Origin: a virus
Direction: 5' to 3' (one strand)
DNA: 26,140 nt
Virus record (IMG/VR): IMGVR_UViG_3300020437_000296
Span: 1 to 26,140 of that record
Shown: positions 1 to 25,069 of the stretch, in pieces
Layout of the letters: every line of letters begins with the position of its first letter
Numbering within the stretch: position 1 is the stretch's first letter
Program-made: the position numbers and the translations under genes
Notes under the pieces: model-generated
What the model saw: only the letters and a program-made list of their open reading frames with translations
What the model was told of the DNA's origin: nothing
Database searches by the model: none

Positions 1-395
1 TTGTCTATACTTCCCCATTTAGAACTAGAGTGTGAACCACATATAGCACAAGCAAGGTTACAAGTATTCCCCATTTTTAAATCTATTGCTTGTAGAGAAT
101 TCTTTTTATATCTAAAGTTCTTTGTCCATAATTTTATTTCTCTTTGTCTTTTGCTTTCGCCACCTGTTTGTTCAACTTCATAGCATTGTTTACAATCTGT
201 CTGATAGTAGTCATCAAAGTTTTTGATCCAGTCTTGTCTATCACTGTCTCTAAGTATTTCTGTAATTGTATGATAATGTGCGTTTGCTTTTTCTCCATTA
301 ATAGTAAATCTTTTAGAACTAATACAACAAGGAGTTGCCTCACCTTTTGTAGTAAGTTCAAGATTATTTGTTACTAATGGACAGAAATTACTCAT
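1..395 (-). CDS. Radical SAM protein with N-terminal cysteine region (3' part outside window)
   Basis: This reading frame is open from an ATG at 395 to the left edge, giving 131 residues. Reading the minus strand, it begins MSNFCPLVTNNLEL and has a CC pair at residues 23-24 and a CxxC at 68-71. A radical SAM cluster motif CNLACAIC follows (C112, C116, C119), which would bind a [4Fe-4S] cluster on SAM. The layout (P-C-C, then C-x2-C, then CxxxCxxC) matches the family annotated as twitch-domain radical SAM proteins. The start overlaps the stop of the upstream radical SAM gene by 8 nt (ATGAGTAA), which implies translational coupling. It is the third radical SAM gene in a row and more divergent than the other two. 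The substrate is unknown. The GGEP region and C-terminus lie outside the window. Confidence 0.85.
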   Translation of the reverse strand, partial: MSNFCPLVTNNLELTTKGEATPCCISSKRFTINGEKANAHYHTITEILRDSDRQDWIKNFDDYYQTDCKQCYEVEQTGGESKRQREIKLWTKNFRYKKNSLQAIDLKMGNTCNLACAICGSHSSSKWGSID

Positions 396-1944
396 TGACG
401 ATTACACCACCCAAAGCATCTTTATCAGTATCCCAACCACCGACACCTGCTTTTTCGTGTGCATCATCACCACCTTCGTATGATTCTGTAGTTGCAGGGT
501 CGCCTGCTCTGTCACCAACTTCAAGAACAAATGTTTTTGATTTGATTTGTTCTGGTGTAGGTGCTTTAGCATCTATAGTATCATACCAATCTGCGATAGG
601 ACCCTTGAATACTTCTCTGAAATCGTGACCTCTACGAACATCAAACTGTGAAAAGAATGCTTTAAAATCGTTATATAGTTTTGGAGTTTCCGCAGTATTC
701 TTGTGAGGAGTTTTTACAATATCAAGATAATCAATTAATCTTTGTACACTTGCTTTTTCGCCCTCTGTTAATTTTCTCTGCGGTCTGTCTGATATAAACC
801 ATCTTTCTAATTTGTCTTTATAAAAAGTTTTAATATGTTCTGGCAATATTGCGGCACTTTGAAAAGAAGGAAAACGTAAAATATTTAAAGTCATAGTAGG
901 CGCACGTTGTCCGTATTCTTCTCTCAAGTCTAGCATCTCATCCATAAAGTTTGTAATAGTAACTAAACACAATGAGTTAATAGTCATCATCATATGTAAC
1001 TTTTTCACATTTGATTCTTTTAATACACGATGAATATTTGATTTCCATAAATCATAATTCAATCCATCACGTATATATTCTGCTTGTTCTTTTGTTGCTT
1101 CCATTGATGTATAGATTTCAAAGTTAGGAACAAACCAAGACTTTTCAATAAGTTTGTCTAATACTTTTGGTTTCTCAGGAGATAGATTTGAATTAATTGC
1201 GAAACGCATATTTCTACCTCTATCAGGATTCTTTTCAAACCAATCGAATAGTTTCCAAGTACCTCTATGCATAATAGGCTCACCGCCTGTAATTCTAATT
1301 TCTTCTAAACAATCTGCTAAGTCACTTTCCCACCACTTATGAAATGCTTGAATATACGGATTGTCTTCTTCTTGTTTAGACACAGGAGCCGCCCAAGGAG
1401 CAGTATCTACAAAGTGTCCTCTACCATCTGATTGTATATTTTGATAAGCACCATATGTGTTTATATCTTTAACCCAAGCAGTTGAGAATGCTGGATTACA
1501 ATATGAACATTTAAGATTACAAGCACGGTCAAATGAAATTTCTAATGTACGTAAATTTACATTATCGTCCCAAGGCATATTAGCACTCTTTTCGACATCT
1601 TCATCTTTAAATATTTCTGTTTTGAAAACTCTATCTGAAATATGGTCTTTACCCATATCTTCAACTTTCCAACAGTATTCACATTCTGCAGGACGTTTGC
1701 CTTCTTGCATATACTTACGCATAAGTTTTTTATGCTTTGTATTATGAATAGCCGTAGGATTATCTTTTAATTCTTCTAGTGGAATCCAATGACCAGGTGG
1801 GTGGTGACAACTAGCAGTTTGTCCGTGACCTAACCAGATAGTTGCGTTATACCACTTCGCCGCACAGTAAGACGTACTGACAGGATCTATCATACGTTTT
1901 TTGTATTGGTGAAGTGTTTCGCCTTCCCAGTGTTTTCTACCCAT
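388..1944 (-). CDS. Radical SAM protein with N-terminal twitch/SPASM-like cysteine region
   Basis: This is a 518 aa radical SAM enzyme, read from an ATG at 1944. An upstream in-frame ATG at 1974 would give 528 aa, but I prefer 1944. It has a GAGG ribosome site six bases upstream, and it overlaps the previous stop by 8 nt (ATGGGTAG), as the next junction also does. In 528 aa numbering the cluster motif CNLKCSYC has C152, C156 and C159, and the SAM-binding GGEP is at 230-233. Ahead of these lie conserved cysteines in SCHHPPGHWIPLEEL (C56) and ECEYCW (C98, C101), which resemble the auxiliary-cluster part of twitch-type radical SAM proteins. It is clearly paralogous to the gene upstream. The family can modify peptides or small molecules, but no substrate can be read from the sequence. 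Context: a minus-strand cassette with glycosyltransferases beyond the tail genes. Confidence 0.88.
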   Translation of the reverse strand: MGRKHWEGETLHQYKKRMIDPVSTSYCAAKWYNATIWLGHGQTASCHHPPGHWIPLEELKDNPTAIHNTKHKKLMRKYMQEGKRPAECEYCWKVEDMGKDHISDRVFKTEIFKDEDVEKSANMPWDDNVNLRTLEISFDRACNLKCSYCNPAFSTAWVKDINTYGAYQNIQSDGRGHFVDTAPWAAPVSKQEEDNPYIQAFHKWWESDLADCLEEIRITGGEPIMHRGTWKLFDWFEKNPDRGRNMRFAINSNLSPEKPKVLDKLIEKSWFVPNFEIYTSMEATKEQAEYIRDGLNYDLWKSNIHRVLKESNVKKLHMMMTINSLCLVTITNFMDEMLDLREEYGQRAPTMTLNILRFPSFQSAAILPEHIKTFYKDKLERWFISDRPQRKLTEGEKASVQRLIDYLDIVKTPHKNTAETPKLYNDFKAFFSQFDVRRGHDFREVFKGPIADWYDTIDAKAPTPEQIKSKTFVLEVGDRAGDPATTESYEGGDDAHEKAGVGGWDTDKDALGGVIVNE

Positions 1945-3502
1945 ATTTTGCCTCGTATTCTTCTTTTGCCTCATTCCAGAAATCAGTCATTTCAGGGAAA
2001 GTTTCTAGGAAATTAAGACCTCTTCTTTCATCGTATTGTTTAAAGTATTCATAAAAACGAATAAGATGTGTACTTAATTCGTCATCTGTCATATTTATCC
2101 CCTCTTTGGCCCACGCCAAATCACGTTCAAGTTTTAATACTTCATAATTCTTAAAACCTGTGTACTTTCGACCATATAAGTCATTCTCTAAAACATTATC
2201 TTTCATAAAGTTAATATTATCTTGTATAGTATCAAGTAATGTCGGATCTGCTAACTGAATTGTCATCCAGTCAGGATATCTTAGATAAGGGATATCAAAC
2301 CAAACTCTTTGTCTTTTCTTTCTAACAAAAGGTGGGTGTTTGAAACCATTATAGTCTGGTGGTTGTATAATTTTATCTTCTTGATTTTCATATCCAAATT
2401 CTTCACGTAAATCTAATACCATCTGTAAAAATCCACGTAGATTTGGTATGCTCAATAATTGAAAAGTATTAATAAAAGAAATTTCAGTTCCATCTGTTTC
2501 ACGTAATACTCTGCGACAATTATTATACATTTTATCAAAGTCTAATCCATCACGCATATATTCTGCTTGTTTGCCTACACCATCAACACTAACATATAAA
2601 CTAAAATGTTTGTATGCAGGTGCGACATACCAGTGATTGCCACTATCTGGATTAAATCTTTTTGGATCTTCCCATACACGAATTTCTTCACAAGACTTAA
2701 TCTTATCAATAAACTTATCGAATAGTTTATCTTGTGGAGGACACATATTTGATGTAATACTTAAGTCAAGAAATGGATTTGGATTTTCATTTACATAATC
2801 AAATACTTTAAATGTATTGCTATCCATTAATGGTTCACCACCTGTCATACGAAAAACTTTCAAGTCTCTGTATATCATTGGAAACCATTTCCAAAATGCT
2901 TCGATATAAGGATTATCTTTACGTGCTACTTCTAATGGCATCAAACCAGTCTTACGCAAGTAATCTATATCATTATGACCTGTGCCATTACTGAAACGAA
3001 ATCCACCGTGTTTCTTTACATCATCTTCCCAAGCCGTTGACAAATGAGGAGAACAATAACTACATTTAAAGTTACACGCCTGATTAAAATTAACTTCTAC
3101 ATATCTTGGTGTTATGTTATGATCCCAAGGATTATTTACTACTTCGTCCCAGGCATCTTTAACCCACCATTCACTTGAGCGATAATGCCTATCACTCAAC
3201 CTACCACCTTTCGGGGCGTTAGGGGCATCTTCAACGTTCCAGCAATATTGACACCCTTCAGGTCGAGTGCCACATTTCATTTGCTTACGTTCTTCTAATT
3301 TGAATGTAGTATTGTGTAACGCATTAGGATCTTTTTTAAGTTCTTCTAATGGTATAGGGTGAGTTGGCGGGTGATAACAACTATGTGTTCTACCTTGTGG
3401 TAAATGCAAACTCACTTGTAACCATTTTGCCATACACATTGATGGCGATAGAGAATTTAATTTATCCCTGGTTACTATTGCATCGTCATCATAATTCGCC
3501 AT
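1937..3502 (-). CDS. Radical SAM protein with N-terminal twitch/SPASM-like cysteine region
   Basis: This 521 aa protein has a radical SAM core with CNFKCSYC (C143, C147, C150) and GGEP at 221-224. A conserved strand/loop SVDGVGKQAEYMRDGLDFDK follows and has a counterpart (TSMEATKEQAEYIRDGLNYD) in the next gene. The N-terminal region carries C42 (SCYHPP), a HPIPLEELKKDPNALHN stretch and C84/C87 (GCQYCW). It aligns end to end with the downstream paralog, so the pair arose by duplication. It starts 7 nt after the 325 aa gene and overlaps the next gene by 8 nt. The ribosome site is weak, so expression probably depends on coupling to the upstream gene. A peptide- or sugar-modifying role is inferred from family and context only. 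Confidence 0.88.
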   Translation of the reverse strand: MANYDDDAIVTRDKLNSLSPSMCMAKWLQVSLHLPQGRTHSCYHPPTHPIPLEELKKDPNALHNTTFKLEERKQMKCGTRPEGCQYCWNVEDAPNAPKGGRLSDRHYRSSEWWVKDAWDEVVNNPWDHNITPRYVEVNFNQACNFKCSYCSPHLSTAWEDDVKKHGGFRFSNGTGHNDIDYLRKTGLMPLEVARKDNPYIEAFWKWFPMIYRDLKVFRMTGGEPLMDSNTFKVFDYVNENPNPFLDLSITSNMCPPQDKLFDKFIDKIKSCEEIRVWEDPKRFNPDSGNHWYVAPAYKHFSLYVSVDGVGKQAEYMRDGLDFDKMYNNCRRVLRETDGTEISFINTFQLLSIPNLRGFLQMVLDLREEFGYENQEDKIIQPPDYNGFKHPPFVRKKRQRVWFDIPYLRYPDWMTIQLADPTLLDTIQDNINFMKDNVLENDLYGRKYTGFKNYEVLKLERDLAWAKEGINMTDDELSTHLIRFYEYFKQYDERRGLNFLETFPEMTDFWNEAKEEYEAKYG

Positions 3503-3509
3503 ATCATCT

Positions 3510-4487
3510 TTACTTGTCCCAACCAGTCTGCTTTTCAGTTGCTAATGGATTTGCAACTCTAGGTGGGTTTGTATAAACACGTTTAAAGAATCTTCCGACT
3601 TCAGGAGTTGGATCGCAAAGTTCTAAATCTAATTTATTAACAAGTATATCACCTGTATCTAAACACGCATCATACAATTTCTCGTAATCCCAAGTTAGTT
3701 TAGTTTTCTCACACTTCATATCTCCTCCCTCAAACTTAGGGAAAAGTACATTATCAAAATGTTCTTTGAACCAATCAAAACTTGAAATACTTTCTAATAG
3801 AAAGTCAGGATTCAAATTGATATCAAAGCATCCTAATCTCGCTCCATAGATTGCCCATAGACCGTTATCTATATCTGCACCTATGTTTTGCCAAGTAATT
3901 AATCTTTCGTAGTTCTTAGGCCATATTCTCTTTTTAAATTCATTTGGTTTGACTACTTTACCTTCATCTAAAGACATCTTAACACCTTCACGATATCCTG
4001 CTCTAAAGGCTTGATATGGAGAGCCAGCATTATGTACAGTTGAATAAATGTTATTCATTTGTATATAATTCAAGTCCCAACAAAAATCTACTTTCTTAGT
4101 TTCTTCATCTGCATTTTCGTGTGTTTTCATATTAAGAACTAAGTCAACAGGCCAACATTTGATACCACCATTGCCGTATACTAAACCATTGACTACGTTT
4201 TTACCACACCAAGATATAACAGAATTACTCAAGTCTGTGCCTTCTGGAAATGATAACTCTATATCAAAGAATTTTTCATCTACGATATTATCTCCATCAA
4301 CACTTATAAATCTTTCAGTGTCACTTTGTCTAGCACATTCTTTGTGTGCATTATCAAATCCTTTTACTCCGTCAACACGTTTAGCAAAAGGAAATTTACT
4401 TATTAAGTCTGCCCAATGTTTTTCTTTTTCGGGTTCGTCATAACTAATATAAAATATGTCTAACTCGCCTACTTCAAGTTTTGTCAT
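3510..4487 (-). CDS. Putative GT-A-like glycosyltransferase
   Basis: This 325 aa soluble protein has an N-terminal Rossmann-like alternation (LDIFYISYDEPEKEKHWADL) ending in RFISVDGDNIVDEKFF. Its DGD at residues 64-66 sits where GT-A enzymes place the metal- and nucleotide-sugar-binding DxD. Later come a GNGGIKCWP segment, an aromatic-rich middle and FRAGYREGVKMSL. There is no signal peptide or membrane span. The start overlaps the stop of the 191 aa gene by 4 nt (ATGA), and it is followed 7 nt later by the first radical SAM gene. Fold and DxD support a nucleotide-sugar transferase, but I do not recognise a characterised family, so donor and acceptor are unknown. It is less similar to the two glycosyltransferases upstream than those are to each other. 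Confidence 0.6.
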   Translation of the reverse strand: MTKLEVGELDIFYISYDEPEKEKHWADLISKFPFAKRVDGVKGFDNAHKECARQSDTERFISVDGDNIVDEKFFDIELSFPEGTDLSNSVISWCGKNVVNGLVYGNGGIKCWPVDLVLNMKTHENADEETKKVDFCWDLNYIQMNNIYSTVHNAGSPYQAFRAGYREGVKMSLDEGKVVKPNEFKKRIWPKNYERLITWQNIGADIDNGLWAIYGARLGCFDINLNPDFLLESISSFDWFKEHFDNVLFPKFEGGDMKCEKTKLTWDYEKLYDACLDTGDILVNKLDLELCDPTPEVGRFFKRVYTNPPRVANPLATEKQTGWDK

Positions 4488-5059
4488 TTAATTCTCCTGA
4501 ATGAATATGTATCTAAAAACTTTTGTGTATAGATACTTATATCATATTTATTATATTCGAATTTAACATCTACACCATCACTTAACAATTTAGCAAATGG
4601 TATAGATAGTGTTTTTATTAAAAAGTCTGGTCTATCTTTGTACGTAACAAAAAACATATGTTTAGTTTTTCCAGCAACTGTAACACTTTGTGAAGCATCT
4701 ACTTCTGATTTCGCTTTTAAATCTTCACTTGGTTTTAAAGAAATTGTTTCACCATCATATGTTATGTCAATATCTGCATTATCATATTCTTCAATTTTTA
4801 CTAATTGGTTTTCTTTACTCTTTTGTTTTATATCTACTTTCGTTCTTTTAATCTCATACGTAAAAACACTATCAGGAATTTTAACTATTTTAAAGTCCGA
4901 TATTTTTATTACACCTTCTAAGAAAGGTTTTATATCTTCTATTTCAAAATATGTATGTTTCTTATCTTCATCGATAGTTGATGAAATAGAAAGTATGTTT
5001 CCGTTGTCATCAAAATTTACAATACGAGTAGTTTCTGTAGGTTCTTTTACACTTATCAT
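4484..5059 (-). CDS. Hypothetical protein, lysine-rich and probably beta-rich
   Basis: This 191 aa protein is not one I recognise. It has no signal peptide, membrane segment or cysteine, and alternates short hydrophobic strands with charged turns (for example FEIEDIKPFLEGVIKISDF and ADIDITYDGETISLKPSEDLK). The C-terminal part, KTKHMFFVTYKDRPDFLIKT onward, looks like a compact alpha/beta segment. It overlaps both neighbours by 4 nt ATGA junctions: upstream the 285 aa glycosyltransferase, downstream the 325 aa DGD protein. It is therefore almost certainly co-translated with them and may be a partner or acceptor in the same pathway. That role is inferred from position only. Confidence 0.8.
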   Translation of the reverse strand: MISVKEPTETTRIVNFDDNGNILSISSTIDEDKKHTYFEIEDIKPFLEGVIKISDFKIVKIPDSVFTYEIKRTKVDIKQKSKENQLVKIEEYDNADIDITYDGETISLKPSEDLKAKSEVDASQSVTVAGKTKHMFFVTYKDRPDFLIKTLSIPFAKLLSDGVDVKFEYNKYDISIYTQKFLDTYSFRRIK

Positions 5060-5913
5060 ATACCTAATGTCCTCTCATATTTTTCTATCTTGTCATCTGT
5101 CATCCATTCTTTTTCAACATAATGAAAAGGTAGAGATTGTTCATAGTTAGCCACTCTAACTTTTAAGTCTGATCCTAGTTCACTAGGAATACTTTCTGTC
5201 CATATACCTGATATTTTTGTTGACGCAATATTTTGTATATAACTTTTCATATGTACAAAAGTAGGAACGTCTTTAATATCATAATCACAAACTTCGTTTT
5301 CTAAATCTAATAATTTAATTGCTAGTGCATATGCCAAATCTGCACTCATCCAGTTTTGACCTATACCTTTTAAAAACTTATCATAATATACGTGCCAATG
5401 TGTCATAATGATTTCAATCATTCTAAACAATTCAAATGTAGTTTGTGATTCTTTAAAGTATGTAAAATTACTATAGATGTTAGGTAACTCTAATTCTGTA
5501 AACTTTGTTCTATAGTAATCACTTTTTACATTTTCATTTCTAAATGTTTTTACATTTGTACAAGCCCACACTTCTTTCTTTGATAGATAATCCCACCATT
5601 GGTCTACAGGTTGAGTAAAAACAACATCTGTATCTAAAATAATACTTTCTTTAAAAGGAGTCATATGTGGATACTTCCATTTATTGTGTATCTTCCAAAC
5701 GTCACCTTTTGCAGGATCATTCCAAGGAATATCAACTACATAATCAAAAACTTCTTTATACTTGTCTGGCATTGCAGATTTTGTATCTTCATCTACACAA
5801 ACACAAAACTGATTTTCTTTTTGTGTTGCCTTTAAACTCAAAGCAAGGGCATACGCAAGTTTCAAATAATCTACTTTACTATTTTGTGCTATTGCTATAT
5901 AGCCTCTACTCAT
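5056..5913 (-). CDS. Putative GT-A (GT8-like) glycosyltransferase
   Basis: This 285 aa protein starts MSRGYIAIAQNSKVDYLKLA, a first strand and helix typical of GT8/GT-A enzymes. ESIILDTDVVF follows, with the metal/nucleotide-sugar-binding DTD at residues 94-96, and then PVDQWWDYL. The middle holds a helical aromatic-rich stretch (FRMIEIIMTHWHVYYDKFL) and SADLAYALAIKLL. It is a paralog of the 291 aa gene upstream: shared start, shared VDYxKxA, shared DxD, and shared late motif with an Asp-x3-Ala (SADLAYALAI against RNDFVFSMAI). It overlaps its neighbours by 4 nt on each side. The family transfers sugars from nucleotide donors in the cytoplasm. The acceptor could be a tail protein, DNA or a host glycan, and I cannot distinguish these. 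Confidence 0.72.
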   Translation of the reverse strand: MSRGYIAIAQNSKVDYLKLAYALALSLKATQKENQFCVCVDEDTKSAMPDKYKEVFDYVVDIPWNDPAKGDVWKIHNKWKYPHMTPFKESIILDTDVVFTQPVDQWWDYLSKKEVWACTNVKTFRNENVKSDYYRTKFTELELPNIYSNFTYFKESQTTFELFRMIEIIMTHWHVYYDKFLKGIGQNWMSADLAYALAIKLLDLENEVCDYDIKDVPTFVHMKSYIQNIASTKISGIWTESIPSELGSDLKVRVANYEQSLPFHYVEKEWMTDDKIEKYERTLGI

Positions 5914-6785
5914 AACGTTTGTCCTTTTTCTAAGAAAGTATCAATATTTCTTTCGATACCTTTCTTATTCATAATATGTAAATCTGTATTAGTAAATCTA
6001 GCAAGATTGTGTAATGTTAGTTTTTCTGGCTTTGCACAAAACAAAATAATATCATTACTTGAATTTACTCTAAACACATCATCCATATCAAAACTATTAT
6101 TTAGATATTCAATTGGAAGAGCAGGTACTTTTGAATCCACTCTACCATTCAAGATATGAATTGCCATTGAAAAAACAAAATCATTCCTAAACAACTGTCC
6201 ACCTGTACAATTATACAGAAAATAATAGTATCTGAAATTTTCTTTAATGTGTGATATAAGGTAAAACAGATTTTCAGTATATTCAGATTTTCTAAAATAG
6301 AAGACAGTTGCCCAATACATAGGAATTGAAAAATCGTCAATATAGGAAATGTTGCCGCCATGTCTACCAGAAACATCCCTATACTGACAATTAATCATAA
6401 GGTCGTTTTCACTACCCCATACTTGGTCTAGTGTATTACTCATTACAAAGTAATCACCGTCTATGACCAGAGTTTCATCATAAGGAGATAACTCATATAT
6501 GTCACTTCTACCCATATTGATAAAAGGTGCATAGTTTGAATCTTCATAAGTATCCTTAAATAATCTTATGTTTGGATGTGATTGGGAAGCATCCTGAATA
6601 ATAGTCCTGTCAAAATATTTGTCTATTAATCTTTTATTTGCTTTTTGTGATTTTGAATCTGTTATTAAACAAATCTCATCAAACTTTGATAAATTCTTTC
6701 TAACAAATCCTGCACTAGCACAAGCAATTTTGATATAATCGACTAGTCCATTATTAGATGCAAAGATTACAATACCTTTGCTCAT
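5910..6785 (-). CDS. Putative GT-A (GT8-like) glycosyltransferase
   Basis: This 291 aa protein begins MSKGIVIFASNNGLVDYIKI and carries ETLVIDGDYFVM, with DGD at residues 109-111 as the likely DxD. A SGRHGGNISYIDDF segment and RNDFVFSMAIHIL follow. It has the same plan as the 285 aa gene downstream, and the two probably arose by duplication. No signal peptide or membrane span is visible. It starts 1 nt past the stop of the 127 aa gene and overlaps the next gene by 4 nt. Because the two paralogs differ in the DxD (DGD against DTD) and in the substrate-side middle region, they may add different sugars or act in sequence. That is inference. Confidence 0.72.
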   Translation of the reverse strand: MSKGIVIFASNNGLVDYIKIACASAGFVRKNLSKFDEICLITDSKSQKANKRLIDKYFDRTIIQDASQSHPNIRLFKDTYEDSNYAPFINMGRSDIYELSPYDETLVIDGDYFVMSNTLDQVWGSENDLMINCQYRDVSGRHGGNISYIDDFSIPMYWATVFYFRKSEYTENLFYLISHIKENFRYYYFLYNCTGGQLFRNDFVFSMAIHILNGRVDSKVPALPIEYLNNSFDMDDVFRVNSSNDIILFCAKPEKLTLHNLARFTNTDLHIMNKKGIERNIDTFLEKGQTL

Positions 6786-6786
6786 A

Positions 6787-7170
6787 TTATATTTCTAGAA
6801 CCTTCTCTACTTTTCTTGAACTTTTCAACTTCTGATAGTCGTTGTAATATTCATTAATTGATTCAAAATATAAACTAGATATATCCTCTAAGAACTTTGC
6901 AGTATCTTCAACCTTAATTGGAATATCGTTCTTATCTAAGATAACAACTTCTGTTTTTCCAGATTGAACAATCATATGCATAAAACTAATCAATGATTGA
7001 TTTACATTGAAAGAACCACCACTATTGCTATAGTTAAGTAGGTTCTGAGTTTTAATTTTTAAGTTATTCTTATTGAGATTAAATGTTTGCATTGTGTTCG
7101 AAAACTCCAATGCTTTTTCAAGCCTTTCAACGTCTTTGTCTGAAGGCGAAATATCCGTTTTTGTTGACAT
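6787..7170 (-). CDS. Hypothetical protein, first gene of the glycosyltransferase/radical SAM cassette
   Basis: This 127 aa protein has no recognised family. It is acidic/lysine-rich with helical ends (DKDVERLEKALEFSNTMQTF near the start, YFESINEYYNDYQKLKSS near the end) and a central NVNQSLISFMHMIVQ followed by EVVILDKNDIPIKVED. There are no cysteines, signal peptide or membrane span. The start at 7170 is firm because an AAGGAG ribosome site (7178-7183) lies 7 bases upstream. It is the first gene after a strong sigma70-like promoter and is followed with a single-base gap by a glycosyltransferase, so it is part of the same transcript. An assembly-factor or adaptor role is possible but unsupported. 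Confidence 0.8.
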   Translation of the reverse strand: MSTKTDISPSDKDVERLEKALEFSNTMQTFNLNKNNLKIKTQNLLNYSNSGGSFNVNQSLISFMHMIVQSGKTEVVILDKNDIPIKVEDTAKFLEDISSLYFESINEYYNDYQKLKSSRKVEKVLEI

Positions 7171-7194: not shown

Positions 7195-7223
7195 ATAATA
7201 CTAAAAAATAAGGTGAATGTCAA
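7195..7223 (-). promoter_or_regulatory. Sigma70-like promoter for the accessory cassette
   Basis: On the minus strand TTGACA (7218-7223) is followed by a 17-base spacer and TATTAT (7195-7200). The -35 is a perfect match and the -10 matches five of six, at ideal spacing. It sits 2 bases after the TAG of the 327 aa structural gene and about 25 bases ahead of the first cassette ATG, so it points leftward into the glycosyltransferase/radical SAM genes. It resembles host-polymerase promoters and not T4-type late promoters. Confidence 0.78.
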
Positions 7224-7225
7224 GC

Positions 7226-8209
7226 CTAAAGTTGTGCAATATGTGAAAAACTTGGAGAAATAATGACTACACCATTACCTGATGCGTCTTGGTCGTCTGC
7301 ACGTAGAATATCCACTTGTGCTTGTAGATTTCCATCTACGTAGTCTTGTCCTACGTAGTAATTTTGTACATATAATTGAGAATATGGGTCTGTTGGATCC
7401 ATTGCAGGATATCCATCATCAAATTCTACTTTGATATCTATACTTTGTGTACCATTAAGTCTGCCATATATATTTAATTTGTTAGCAGAATAATATCCAG
7501 TTCCGCCTTTTGTATATAACAATGAATATGTTGAAGACAAAGATGTAAATCCTTGACCTGGTGTACCTACAGAATTTGGACTTTCAGTAAGGTTATGTGA
7601 TATTTTTACTGCACCGATACTTGAAAGAAGTTGATTCCATTGTACACTTTGATTGTGAGATGAATCATAACTTGTTAGAGATGTATCAATTCTTATTTGT
7701 CCACCTGTATTGAAGAAATGTCTTCTAGCATCTTCGCTACCAAATGCGGCTGAAAATTCCCAATATACATTACCTTGCCAAAGGGGTAAACCAGAAGTAT
7801 TGCCTGGAGCCCCAAACTGTTTACCATCTGACCACTTGTTTGACTCAAGTGTCATATACGCCAAGTCAAAGTTTAACTTGTTTGAACGTACATCTTCAAT
7901 ATCAGTTACTAAGTTTGGAATTAATTCTACAAGGTCTCCTGCTGAAGGGAAACCTGGATCATTACTATCTTCTGGAGATTGAATAGTTGTTGCTTGGTGT
8001 CTACCTGCAAACTTAAGTGCAGTTAAAAGATCCTGCATATGAGATGCATTAATCTTAGTACCAGGCGCCACATTTGCAATTACTAGTTGGTTCTGACCAT
8101 AGCCTGAATCACCAGCACCAATTCCAACAATCTCGTTTATATCATCTGCGAAACCGTTAAAATCGACTGCTCGTATCTTCCCTCCTAGTAAATAACTCTG
8201 TGGCGCCAT
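7226..8209 (-). CDS. Virion structural protein, tail/fibre type (paralog of the 304 aa protein)
   Basis: This 327 aa protein is rich in Gly, Ser and Asn. The N-terminal part (residues 11-70) has a DxxxxxxxxINEIVGIGAGDSGYGQNQ segment and a later QDLLTALKFA helix. Residues 150-204 hold a domain with FFNTGGQIRIDTSL, then QWNQLLSSIGAVKIS. Both parts have clear counterparts in the same order in the 304 aa gene just upstream (GVGGGYNQS; WFSAGGEIRISAS; SWEQLTAELGIYRIS). It lacks a signal peptide and membrane spans and ends in short beta-type segments. Position after the baseplate genes and composition indicate a tail-tip, fibre or spike component. It is the last gene of the structural block, followed within 2 nt by the cassette promoter. 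Receptor binding is plausible but not shown. Confidence 0.68.
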   Translation of the reverse strand: MAPQSYLLGGKIRAVDFNGFADDINEIVGIGAGDSGYGQNQLVIANVAPGTKINASHMQDLLTALKFAGRHQATTIQSPEDSNDPGFPSAGDLVELIPNLVTDIEDVRSNKLNFDLAYMTLESNKWSDGKQFGAPGNTSGLPLWQGNVYWEFSAAFGSEDARRHFFNTGGQIRIDTSLTSYDSSHNQSVQWNQLLSSIGAVKISHNLTESPNSVGTPGQGFTSLSSTYSLLYTKGGTGYYSANKLNIYGRLNGTQSIDIKVEFDDGYPAMDPTDPYSQLYVQNYYVGQDYVDGNLQAQVDILRADDQDASGNGVVIISPSFSHIAQL

Positions 8210-8243: not shown

Positions 8244-9158
8244 TTATAGGTTATCTGTTACTGTGAATGTAGGGTTAGTAATATTAACTGAACCACTAGT
8301 GTTACTCAATTTTAGTGATTGAATTGTCACAGTTGATGTACCAACAGCCTGGTCGGCACCTGTCCAAGACCACGGTCCATCATAACCAGAACCAGAACCA
8401 GAACGTGCCACGTGGGCATCTGCTAGTGTAGTTTTGATATAAATTGTTGCACCGTTTTTATAAGCCTCGATTGATATATAGTTTGAACTGTAATCTGAGT
8501 CATCTGCATATTCTTTTTTGATTTCTGCATATGAACCGCCTAAGTCTGAATACTTTTTACGTGTTGATGAATCAACGTTTGTTGAATCTGTGTCACGTAA
8601 AGAAATACGATAGATACCTAGTTCAGCCGTTAACTGTTCCCAAGATGTACCTTGTTGGTTGTTTGATGTGTCATTGTGTGATGCTGAAATTCTAATTTCA
8701 CCACCTGCCGAAAACCAAGCATTCATTGTTGCTTCATCTGTGAATGCAACTGAAACTTCTTGACTAATCGAACCGTTCCAATCTGACTGTGATTGTGATG
8801 TTTCATTACCCACTGTTACGTCCCAACCAGATGAATAATCCCAAGGATTATCAAATCTTGTTGAAATATCAGATACGAAACCTGCGGCTTCGTCTACATA
8901 TGCGGATGCTAGAATTACATCACCAGCATCAACAACTGTAAGTGGGTTAGTAATGTTATAATAATTCGCAACTTTTGCCGCCGCTGAATAGATTGAATCT
9001 TGATATGCGTCATCAATCTCGGTGGCAGAATTTGGGTTTGCCGCTACTGTGTGCGATTGATTGTAGCCACCGCCCACACCTGTACCATTAAGGATACTGT
9101 TAAGTGTGTCTCTCAGTGTGACTAAATCAGTAGCAGAAACTGGTTGACCTTGTGCCAT
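8244..9158 (-). CDS. Virion structural protein, tail/fibre type (paralog of the 327 aa protein)
   Basis: This 304 aa protein opens with VSATDLVTLRDTLNSILNGT, then GVGGGYNQS, then the QDSIYSAAAKVANYY helix. Residues 134-186 form a domain with a WFSAGGEIRISAS strand pair and SWEQLTAELGIYRIS, shared with the neighbouring 327 aa protein. The C-terminal third is Ser/Thr/Asn-rich beta-type sequence with a GSGSG linker, ending in SLKLSNTSGSVNITNP. The two genes are a tandem duplication with diverged C-termini, as expected for tail fibre or baseplate-edge proteins that contact a receptor. The start has an AGGAG ribosome site (GATTTAGGAGTAAGTAAAA then ATG). It belongs to the minus-strand structural block. 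The specific role is uncertain. Confidence 0.68.
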   Translation of the reverse strand: MAQGQPVSATDLVTLRDTLNSILNGTGVGGGYNQSHTVAANPNSATEIDDAYQDSIYSAAAKVANYYNITNPLTVVDAGDVILASAYVDEAAGFVSDISTRFDNPWDYSSGWDVTVGNETSQSQSDWNGSISQEVSVAFTDEATMNAWFSAGGEIRISASHNDTSNNQQGTSWEQLTAELGIYRISLRDTDSTNVDSSTRKKYSDLGGSYAEIKKEYADDSDYSSNYISIEAYKNGATIYIKTTLADAHVARSGSGSGYDGPWSWTGADQAVGTSTVTIQSLKLSNTSGSVNITNPTFTVTDNL

Positions 9159-9179: not shown

Positions 9180-9854
9180 TTATGTTAGTTGTATAGTTAT
9201 TGTGTAATCTATTACAACTGTTCTATTTGCTGATAATAACACAGGGTGAAAAGTCACGTGTGTTAACATCAGGGTCTTAGTCTCGTCCAATACACCAGAG
9301 TTCGTAACACCTGCTAAAAGACCAATCTCGTCAAATGTAAATGCCTGCACACTATTTGCATCAGTAGAACTATCCGTCGACGGAGTAGTAATCGTCGGAT
9401 CAGATAATTGTTGCATTGCCTCATAGTCATTATGTGACATTTCAACTTTGTAATTAATCTTTGATGTATTTTCTGGAACTAAATTCCCTCCTCCCATATC
9501 TTCACCAGGGTAGTAAACAGTGTTCACAGTCTCTTGTTGATATGTTTTGGAGTACAATGTTGAATTACTAGATGTTATTGGTAATCCATCATATGTAGTG
9601 AATACTCTTGGAGAGCGGTATGAAAGAGTAGTTGTAGAACTACTTCCACCATTACCAAATGCCATCCAATTAATACTCGGTGCCGCGCCAGAAGAATTTA
9701 CACTTGTTGGCTTACCAGCAAGTGCGGCTCCCAAAACGTACGCCATATTACCAGGATGTATCGCATTTTTCTTGTCCACAAGTACGGTTCCTGTCTCTTT
9801 ATCAAAGATTTTCAGTGTTCCAACTACTTGTGTTCGTATATTTTCTTTAAACAT
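9180..9854 (-). CDS. Virion structural protein, probable baseplate/tail-fibre component
   Basis: This 224 aa protein starts MFKENIRTQVVGTLKIFDKETG and is Ser/Thr/Gly-rich. Landmarks are HPGNMAYVLGAALAGKP, NWMAFGNGGSSSTTT and a late FTFDEIGLLAGV. A short DEIGL(F/L)A motif of this type recurs in many phage tail-fibre-region proteins, where it usually ends one strand of a small beta domain. It lies directly after the gp7-like gene and before the two tail proteins, where T4-like phages carry gp8-gp10-type baseplate and fibre-attachment genes. At 224 aa it is shorter than T4 gp8 (334 aa), so I do not assign it to a named T4 gene. A GATAAATA late-type octamer lies 25 bases upstream. Confidence 0.68.
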   Translation of the reverse strand: MFKENIRTQVVGTLKIFDKETGTVLVDKKNAIHPGNMAYVLGAALAGKPTSVNSSGAAPSINWMAFGNGGSSSTTTLSYRSPRVFTTYDGLPITSSNSTLYSKTYQQETVNTVYYPGEDMGGGNLVPENTSKINYKVEMSHNDYEAMQQLSDPTITTPSTDSSTDANSVQAFTFDEIGLLAGVTNSGVLDETKTLMLTHVTFHPVLLSANRTVVIDYTITIQLT

Positions 9855-9879: not shown

Positions 9880-9887
9880 TATTTATC
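9880..9887 (-). promoter_or_regulatory. Probable T4-type late promoter (GATAAATA)
   Basis: GATAAATA on the minus strand matches the T4 late consensus TATAAATA at seven of eight bases. It lies in the short gap between the gp7-like gene and the 224 aa gene, 25 bases upstream of that ATG. The identical octamer precedes gp25. A late promoter here would drive the tail-protein segment separately from gp25-gp6-gp7. Confidence 0.5.
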
Positions 9888-24073: not shown

Positions 24074-24084
24074 AATCTTATAGT

Positions 24085-24090
24085 GAGGAG
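24085..24090 (+). promoter_or_regulatory. Ribosome binding site deciding the lyase-like gene start
   Basis: GAGGAG ends 7 bases before the ATG at 24098. An in-frame GTG at 24083 overlaps this site and would add only MRRLI ahead of the signal peptide, so the ATG is preferred. Confidence 0.75.
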
Positions 24091-24097
24091 ATTAATA

Positions 24098-25069
24098 ATG
24101 TTGAGAAGTATCTTAATTGCAAGTCTTTTGTTTACAACCTCTGCGTTAGCAGATTCTGGTTATAGCAAGAAAAATCTTAAAACAATAATGGATAGTAAAA
24201 CTGCCAATCTTATGGATTGGGTAGACCGTAATGTTAAAAAAGACGATACACTTGTCTTTGATAAATTTCACGGACGTGATGCAGTTAAAATTACTTTGTC
24301 ATATGACGATAAAGGTCACCCAAAAGATTGGGGTAGAGATATGGGCTTTGGTAAGGCTCAAAGAATTCAGATTCAAGAAAAGCAATGGAAAAAAGAAATG
24401 CTTGATGGAAAAGAATATTGGTACAAAGTATCAATGTTTATTCCAAGCAACATAGGAAGTCCTAATCACACAACAAGTTTTTATGATTTAAAACCTAGAT
24501 ACAATGGTTCTCAAGGTGCTCCTGCTTTTTCATTTAATATTACAAATGGTAGACTTTCATTACAAGTAGATAATGGTGAGTGGTTGTGTTGGATGAGAAA
24601 TTATGAAAATGCATCTTCAAATAAAGAATGTTCATTTGAAAACAACTTTAGTGTAGAGTTTGAAAACGACAAAAGATTCAGAGACAAATGGTTAGATGTT
24701 GTTATGCAAATCAATATGGTTAAGGGCGAAGAAATTTTTAGAATTTGGATCAATGAAGAACTTCTAATTTCTTATGCTGGTGATATCAACCCTCTTAATG
24801 AAGAATTAGGTTTCAAATGGGGTTTGTATAGAAACGGAATTAAAAAAGAAATACAAGATGAAACTGCTTACTATAGTGATATTCAAAGAGCAAGTAGTTG
24901 TTCTAAACTAAAAGTAAACTGTGAAAAATTCTTAAATGATTTTTCAGGACTAGGTGCTTTTACGGCTAAGAAAATTGTTCTTGCTAAATTAAAAGTTATC
25001 AATGGTAAGCCTGAAAGAAATTGGATTGAAATTTGCAGAGGCAAAACTTGTGAAAACTATGGTCAATAA
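24098..25069 (+). CDS. Secreted polysaccharide-lyase-like jelly-roll protein
   Basis: This 323 aa protein is read from the ATG at 24098. Residues 1-18 are a Sec signal peptide (MLRSILIASLLFTTSALA, then DSG). The mature part resembles the heparin-lyase-I/glucuronan-lyase-like jelly roll (Pfam Polysacc_lyase type). Landmarks are WYKVSMFIPSNI, then FYDLKPRYNGSQGAPAFSF, NGRLSLQVDNG, W(L)DVVMQINMVKG, FRIWINEELLISYAG, FKWGLYRNGI and ETAYYSDIQRA. Tyr258/259 and His58 are candidate catalytic or binding residues, not mapped to a structure. A 58-residue tail follows, and six cysteines (164, 178, 268, 275, 313, 318) could form disulfides after export. It should act in the periplasm or outside, unlike tail-borne depolymerases. 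It has its own promoter. Lyase activity is inferred; a carbohydrate-binding role remains possible. Confidence 0.65.
   Translation: MLRSILIASLLFTTSALADSGYSKKNLKTIMDSKTANLMDWVDRNVKKDDTLVFDKFHGRDAVKITLSYDDKGHPKDWGRDMGFGKAQRIQIQEKQWKKEMLDGKEYWYKVSMFIPSNIGSPNHTTSFYDLKPRYNGSQGAPAFSFNITNGRLSLQVDNGEWLCWMRNYENASSNKECSFENNFSVEFENDKRFRDKWLDVVMQINMVKGEEIFRIWINEELLISYAGDINPLNEELGFKWGLYRNGIKKEIQDETAYYSDIQRASSCSKLKVNCEKFLNDFSGLGAFTAKKIVLAKLKVINGKPERNWIEICRGKTCENYGQ

Follow-up and report, generated by a model that had tools for sequence, protein, structure and literature searches.

A cassette of glycosyltransferase-like and radical SAM genes beside phage tail genes

The window analyzed here, a 26,140-nt stretch of the virus record IMGVR_UViG_3300020437_000296, begins with eight leftward open reading frames (minus strand, positions 1-7170). 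Three of them encode twitch radical SAM (rSAM) proteins and three encode GT-A-like glycosyltransferases (GTs); the remaining two products are small proteins. Upstream of this cassette lie genes for t1, t2, t3, a 2,921-aa virion protein, a gp6-like wedge protein, and a gp25-like protein. The features discussed below are the following.

3..395, minus strand: g1, twitch rSAM, truncated at the window end (full length 375 aa in an overlapping contig)
388..1944, minus strand: g2, twitch rSAM, 518 aa, reading frame open to 1974 with a conserved start MGRK
1937..3502, minus strand: g3, twitch rSAM, 521 aa
3510..4487, minus strand: g4, GT-A-fold glycosyltransferase-like protein with a DGDN motif, member of the invariant core
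4484..5059, minus strand: g5, small all-beta protein of no named fold family
5056..5913, minus strand: g6, glycogenin/GT8-like glycosyltransferase with DxD
5910..6785, minus strand: g7, GT8-like protein with invariant DxD (D109, D111)
6787..7170, minus strand: g8, small protein, head of the cassette in every lineage
7195..7223, minus strand: sigma70-type promoter of the cassette, TTGACA-N17-TATTAT
7226..8209, minus strand: t1, Ser/Thr-rich tail-region protein and proposed acceptor, always directly ahead of the cassette
8244..9158, minus strand: t2, probable t1 paralogue (26% aligned identity, common F-x-GG-x-I-R-I stretch)
9180..9854, minus strand: t3, conserved tail-region protein (phrog_11259)
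9880..9887, minus strand: T4-late-type motif GATAAATA, upstream of t3

A preliminary description of this DNA had reported eight consecutive leftward genes with tight overlaps and gaps, and the reading frames, strand, and junctions are all as reported. Neighbors overlap by 8 nt at g1/g2 and g2/g3 (the latter computed with the conserved g2 start at 1944) and by 4 nt at g4/g5, g5/g6, and g6/g7, with gaps of 7 nt at g3/g4 and 1 nt at g7/g8. Elsewhere in the window, a plus-strand gene at 24083-25069 encodes a protein matching a polysaccharide lyase family (Pfam PF14099, E = 5.8e-15). It adjoins a DNA ligase and a ClpP-like maturation protease, downstream of a sigma70-like site, and may act in degradation of host glycans.

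Radical SAM proteins

The assignment of three rSAM proteins to the twitch type, also proposed in the preliminary description, is borne out by the NCBIfam model N_Twi_rSAM (NF033640, curated cut-off 170 bits). g2 and g3 score 308.8 and 293.3 bits, while g1 scores 83.7 bits because it is truncated by the window, its full-length copy in an overlapping contig reaching 243 bits. The CX3CX2C cluster motif is kept in 497/497 full-length rSAM homologues, so selection maintains these proteins as enzymes. They form about 30 orthologue groups, with 3-21 twitch rSAMs in each larger contig. An A-type Fe-S carrier is encoded in all five contigs of at least 317 kb and IscU in four of the five, in agreement with an earlier report of 12 rSAMs and a carrier in one phage.

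The sources searched name no substrate for these phage twitch rSAMs. Related SPASM/twitch enzymes often act on peptides, and the NCBIfam neighbors of the phage proteins are peptide maturases. Among the genes that recur beside bacterial twitch rSAMs are those for GT2, carbamoyltransferase, PhyH, and GDSL proteins, yet the bacterial context is mixed, with housekeeping surroundings as well as glycan loci, so that these neighborhoods do not point to one rSAM substrate. Bdellovibrionota, Elusimicrobia, and Bacteroidota commonly carry distant N-twitch rSAMs, which often occur as runs of several copies (L152-L224).

Glycosyltransferase-like proteins

Three GT-A-like proteins had been claimed as well, and the support is good for g6, moderate and structural for g4, and weakest for g7. 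All three contain a conserved DxD-type motif. g6 matches glycogenin in a PDB profile search (E = 5e-4), without a Pfam GT8 match. The AlphaFold model of g4 is confident (pLDDT 88.7). Most of its top PDB matches belong to GT-A glycosyltransferases and to sugar-nucleotide enzymes related to them, at E values of at least 1.6e-3 and TM-scores of about 0.3. SunS and ThuS, the S-glycosyltransferases of glycocins, are among these best structural matches. g4 also matches a BFVD glycosyltransferase (7e-4), and its weak fold matches include a glycosyltransferase of phage Che8. The case for g7 consists of its invariant DxD and a marginal glycogenin profile match (E about 1); PDB profile searches with g4 and g7 gave nothing informative. 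Additional g4-like paralogues, some of them fused into longer proteins, occur further down the island (L117 12695-13777, L148 16627-17952, L270 15696-17342).

Small proteins and the possibility of peptide modification

The slot between g6 and g4 is always filled, here by g5, with a sequence that is not conserved across lineages; homology among these small proteins was unsupported by hhalign. g5 is modeled as a folded beta protein, and a fold search with it matched only uncharacterized phage proteins. An apparent in-frame duplication of g5 in the overlapping contig was discarded as a scaffold joint of ten Ns between two strain variants. The ten-N scaffold gaps of that contig (L124; 20764-20773 and 24994-25003) fall exactly in g5 and t2, strain variants differ at both, and g5 may be a hot spot of microdiversity. 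Between lineages, g8 proteins have only around one third of residues in common, and a MutL match of g8 in a PDB profile search (E = 0.0075) looks like chance.

A small, fast-changing protein that always stands between g6 and g4, the peptide maturases among the rSAM relatives, and the resemblance of g4 to SunS and ThuS would all fit a RiPP-like chemistry, in which the rSAMs directly modify amino-acid side chains in t1, in g8, or in the protein of the g5 slot and the GTs glycosylate the same protein. We consider this unlikely, as g5 models as a folded beta protein, unlike a precursor peptide, and the accessory genes of the cassette are sugar enzymes.

An invariant core with a changeable tail

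The cassette had been delimited as a unit of three GTs and three rSAMs, and this boundary has to be given up, since the array runs past position 1. A 42.9-kb contig (G001) that overlaps the window at 99.7-99.9% identity continues with five more twitch rSAMs (making eight in tandem), a GT-like gene, and two esterase-like (GDSL) genes, most of them overlapping by 1-8 nt; no run of Ns interrupts the contig there. Past the window end, G001 (L123 1903-8878) also encodes additional GDSL/SGNH-like proteins, a GT-like protein, and, on the opposite strand, an FG-GAP/VCBS-like repeat protein (L123 4848-6443). In a 342-kb relative the same tract encodes a cupin isomerase, a DegT aminotransferase, a sugar C-methyltransferase, a TylF methyltransferase, a UDP-glucose dehydrogenase, and an NAD epimerase, along with GDSL proteins and additional rSAMs. 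In a second lineage, a carbamoyltransferase and a PIG-L deacetylase are present as well. Across relatives, then, the changeable tail of the cassette contains rSAM, GT, SGNH, carbamoyltransferase, methyltransferase, and aminotransferase genes. The natural unit is an invariant core followed by this changeable tail.

The common order is t1, promoter, g8, g7, g6, a small protein, and g4, followed by variable rSAMs, GTs, and sugar enzymes. The order g7-g6-g4 is kept in 160/160 scored loci (38+49+62+11, distinct within each set, the sets partly overlapping), a co-occurrence that is partly conditioned, as the loci were found through core genes. The gene set also flanks tail genes in other phages, a check put forward in the preliminary description: t1 lies directly before g8 in 149 of 154 loci, and a search from t1 alone found the cassette at 13/13 loci, counting one (L386) at which another t1 gene lies in between and the same contig has the cassette at L318. 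Independent scattering of the genes among relatives, which had been named as evidence against a single pathway, did not occur for the core. In several lineages of aquatic myophages, t1, the GT trio, g8, and the g5-slot protein form a fixed block with its own host-sigma70-type promoter.

The rSAM array is the variable part of the locus. An rSAM directly follows g4 in most loci; in a few the rSAMs are on the opposite strand or missing, with none nearby. In a comparison of distances, the GTs follow the phage backbone and rSAM-1, the first member of the array, does not. Such variability, together with the lack of backbone tracking by rSAM-1 and the loci where rSAMs are absent or inverted, is what would be expected if a hypervariable tail-fiber island had simply gathered unrelated auxiliary genes, with separate roles for rSAMs and GTs. 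Mere hitch-hiking of this kind seems quite improbable to us given the invariant core order and its promoter, the tight overlaps that run through rSAMs, GT, and esterases, and the usual position of an rSAM right after g4.

Distribution

Searches with g3 and g4 located about 120 loci in marine viral contigs of up to 342 kb. The wedge protein of the marine contigs is nearest to that of the jumbo phages GAP32, RaK2, and CBB (33% identity), whose corresponding region is without such a cassette. Further scans found the cassette in T4-like marine and lake lineages, and a search of bacterial genome contigs recovered the same gene order in marine MAG contigs that carry phage tail genes. The contigs with both tail genes and cassette (L147, L148, L150, L151, L199, L218, L219) sit in bins named for Verrucomicrobia, Pelagibacter, Betaproteobacteria, Rickettsiales, and Rhodobacteraceae; they are probably mis-binned viruses, so no host can be read from the MAG names. 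With g3, g4, g6, the g4 of the second lineage, t1, and a g7 from a lake phage as tblastn queries, none of 50,697 phage records gave a match.

Promoters and transcription

The sigma70-type promoter TTGACA-N17-TATTAT stands 25 nt ahead of g8, within the 55-nt gap between t1 and g8. A sigma70-like site (at least 10/12 matching positions) precedes g8 in 129/154 loci, compared with about 2.6% of random stretches, and it is kept across lineages despite the divergence of the g8 proteins. The T4-late-type motif GATAAATA precedes t3 in 30/39 loci against a background of 1%, and among the upstream octamers of the 342-kb genome, words of the GATAAATA type and TTGACA rank first. On this sequence evidence the cassette is a transcription unit separate from the tail operon, and we infer that its promoter means early expression. 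The placement right after tail genes given in the preliminary description stands insofar as the cassette adjoins t1, but the cassette is not simply part of the tail operon.

In lake loci (e.g., L265, L277, L282, L291, L294) a hairpin and then a T-rich stretch directly precede the cassette promoter (GGGACTTCGGTCCC-TTTACTTTT in L265), an arrangement that resembles a terminator for the tail operon. At one locus, L199, a late-type motif takes the place of the sigma70-type site before g8. In 21/45 loci a late-type motif also lies ahead of g4; it was set aside because it coincides with g5 codons for Asn-Lys-Tyr.

T4-like phages glycosylate their DNA, and early-type transcription would also suit hypermodification of DNA or RNA by the GTs and rSAMs. 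Nucleic acid, one of the acceptors suggested in the preliminary description, found no support: a single, ordinary ThyA-type match was present in 4/10 records, and no base-modifying partner enzyme was found. With the fixed link to a tail protein also speaking against it, we regard this reading as very improbable.

The acceptor of the predicted pathway

t1 has a Ser+Thr content of 22-31%, compared with 14-16% in unassigned neighbors; high Ser/Thr content is common among fiber proteins. A PDB profile search with t1 gave nothing informative. Beyond the backbone, t1 and GT distances correlate weakly (partial correlation 0.00-0.26), so that co-evolution is not shown and t1 as the acceptor is the favored hypothesis, not a result.

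Polytopic proteins (4 or more TM segments) make up 0/1,729 cassette proteins, compared with 82/1,009 in bacterial rSAM neighborhoods. No initiating polyprenyl-phosphate glycosyltransferase (Bac_transf, PF02397) was detected in 12 large contigs (9/14 control genomes were positive), nor was a flippase (PF01943) in the same 12. The pathway thus looks soluble and would not by itself build and export a lipid-linked polysaccharide, although phages seldom encode polytopic proteins, which makes this argument suggestive only. For the surface glycan offered as an acceptor in the preliminary description, this weakens a self-made, exported polysaccharide and leaves a host-made glycan as a candidate.

The main rival, close behind the favored reading, starts from such a host glycan: early enzymes would alter LPS or capsule sugars of the host by way of host export and thereby exclude rival phages, as in serotype conversion. 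It too needs an early-type promoter, which the sigma70-type site provides, and it is in keeping with the sugar-nucleotide enzymes of the extended cassette, the GT2, carbamoyltransferase, PhyH, and GDSL neighbors of bacterial twitch rSAMs, and published readings of pelagimyophage GT8 genes (PMC7029224) and of jumbo phage and cyanophage polysaccharide clusters (PMC7824862). Against it are the missing initiating transferase, flippase, and polytopic protein, the same GT trio in lineages whose hosts and envelopes must differ widely, and the strict t1 link, for which it has no need. We view host remodeling as a realistic possibility with odds well under even.

The overall best explanation, to which we assign a probability of roughly 0.45, is cytosolic synthesis and tailoring of a glycan that is most likely placed on t1. 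The GTs would transfer sugars one after another from nucleotide donors to build a short glycan in a soluble cytosolic pathway, and the rSAMs would then tailor it chemically, performing radical steps such as epimerization, oxidation, deoxygenation, or C-C bond formation on the sugars or the glycan, with phage Fe-S carriers helping to load them. Early transcription would have the enzymes ready before the late tail proteins appear. A t1-family tail protein would be the most likely acceptor, giving a virion glycan whose chemotype shifts as the rSAM array is reshuffled. Because t1 and the cassette predict each other and t1 is rich in Ser and Thr, t1 is the obvious candidate; a GT trio retained in waters, and hence hosts, that differ greatly is more readily explained by an acceptor made by the phage than by envelopes specific to each host, and the lack of polytopic, Bac_transf, and flippase proteins fits a cytosolic acceptor.

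Subjectively, we judge it probable that the cassette is a glycan pathway of some kind, and t1 or another virion protein as its acceptor somewhat short of an even bet. A more specific proposal, which we hold as doubtful, is that the GT trio glycosylates t1 and up to about 20 reshuffled rSAMs diversify the glycan chemistry, so that the host-contact surface would be varied by enzyme content and not by protein sequence.

These phages are common in aquatic habitats and have a hugely expanded set of twitch rSAMs. The location of these enzymes behind one promoter, a tail protein, and a conserved GT core offers a pathway and a class of substrate that are concrete enough to test. Should the glycan be attached to the virion, large phages could use enzymes to diversify their host-contact surfaces; should it be attached to the host, the cassette would be an early surface-remodeling program. 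With either acceptor, new radical chemistry on sugars or proteins may be involved.

Comparison with known systems

The closest described system is the host recognition cluster of pelagimyophages, a variable tail-region island, placed between the VrlC and gp14 genes, with tail fibers, several GT8s, and rSAM cassettes (Zaragoza-Solas 2020, PMC7029224). In the locus studied here, too, the structural region combines rSAM cassettes with GTs and tail fibers. That cluster is described as plastic, whereas here we find a fixed core of t1, promoter, g8, g7, g6, a variable small protein, and g4 with a conserved promoter, a core that extends to GAP32-related jumbo phages and to lake phages. The freshwater pelagimyophage group is without rSAM or LPS genes according to PMC7029224; in contrast, our lake contigs have both rSAMs and GTs.

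The T4-like marine viral genome TARA_ERS488813_N000010, with 12 rSAM genes and an A-type Fe-S carrier (Nishimura 2017, PMC5332604), resembles our contigs in pairing many rSAMs with a carrier. The portion of that account available to us interprets them as Fe-S metabolism and describes no GT cassette, gene order, or promoter. Capsular and LPS clusters of cyanophages and jumbo phages hold glycosyltransferases and sugar-nucleotide enzymes (PMC7824862); dominance by twitch rSAMs is not described there, and the contigs tested here have neither an initiating transferase nor a flippase. The cultured Vibrio phage K566 (OZ196521) carries an N-twitch rSAM cluster beside an LPS-galactosyltransferase-like gene (L145 4483-14602). 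None of the core genes g3, g4, and g6 is matched in K566, which is a possible laboratory model.

Phage GTs that decorate the phage's own virion proteins are known from mycobacteriophage Che8 (Freeman 2023, cited in PMC11256854). As cited there, the system is like the role proposed here and differs in having no rSAM array, in modifying capsid proteins and not a tail protein, and in its unrelated sequences.

Tail-linked islands with GT8 and rSAM cassettes in pelagimyophages, and rSAM-rich phages, were thus already known. Our literature search, which was without most subscription journals, found no report of the fixed core, its promoter, the t1 link, or presence in jumbo and lake phages; what appears to be new is the fixed core, the cassette promoter, the extension to jumbo and lake lineages, and the numbers of rSAMs.
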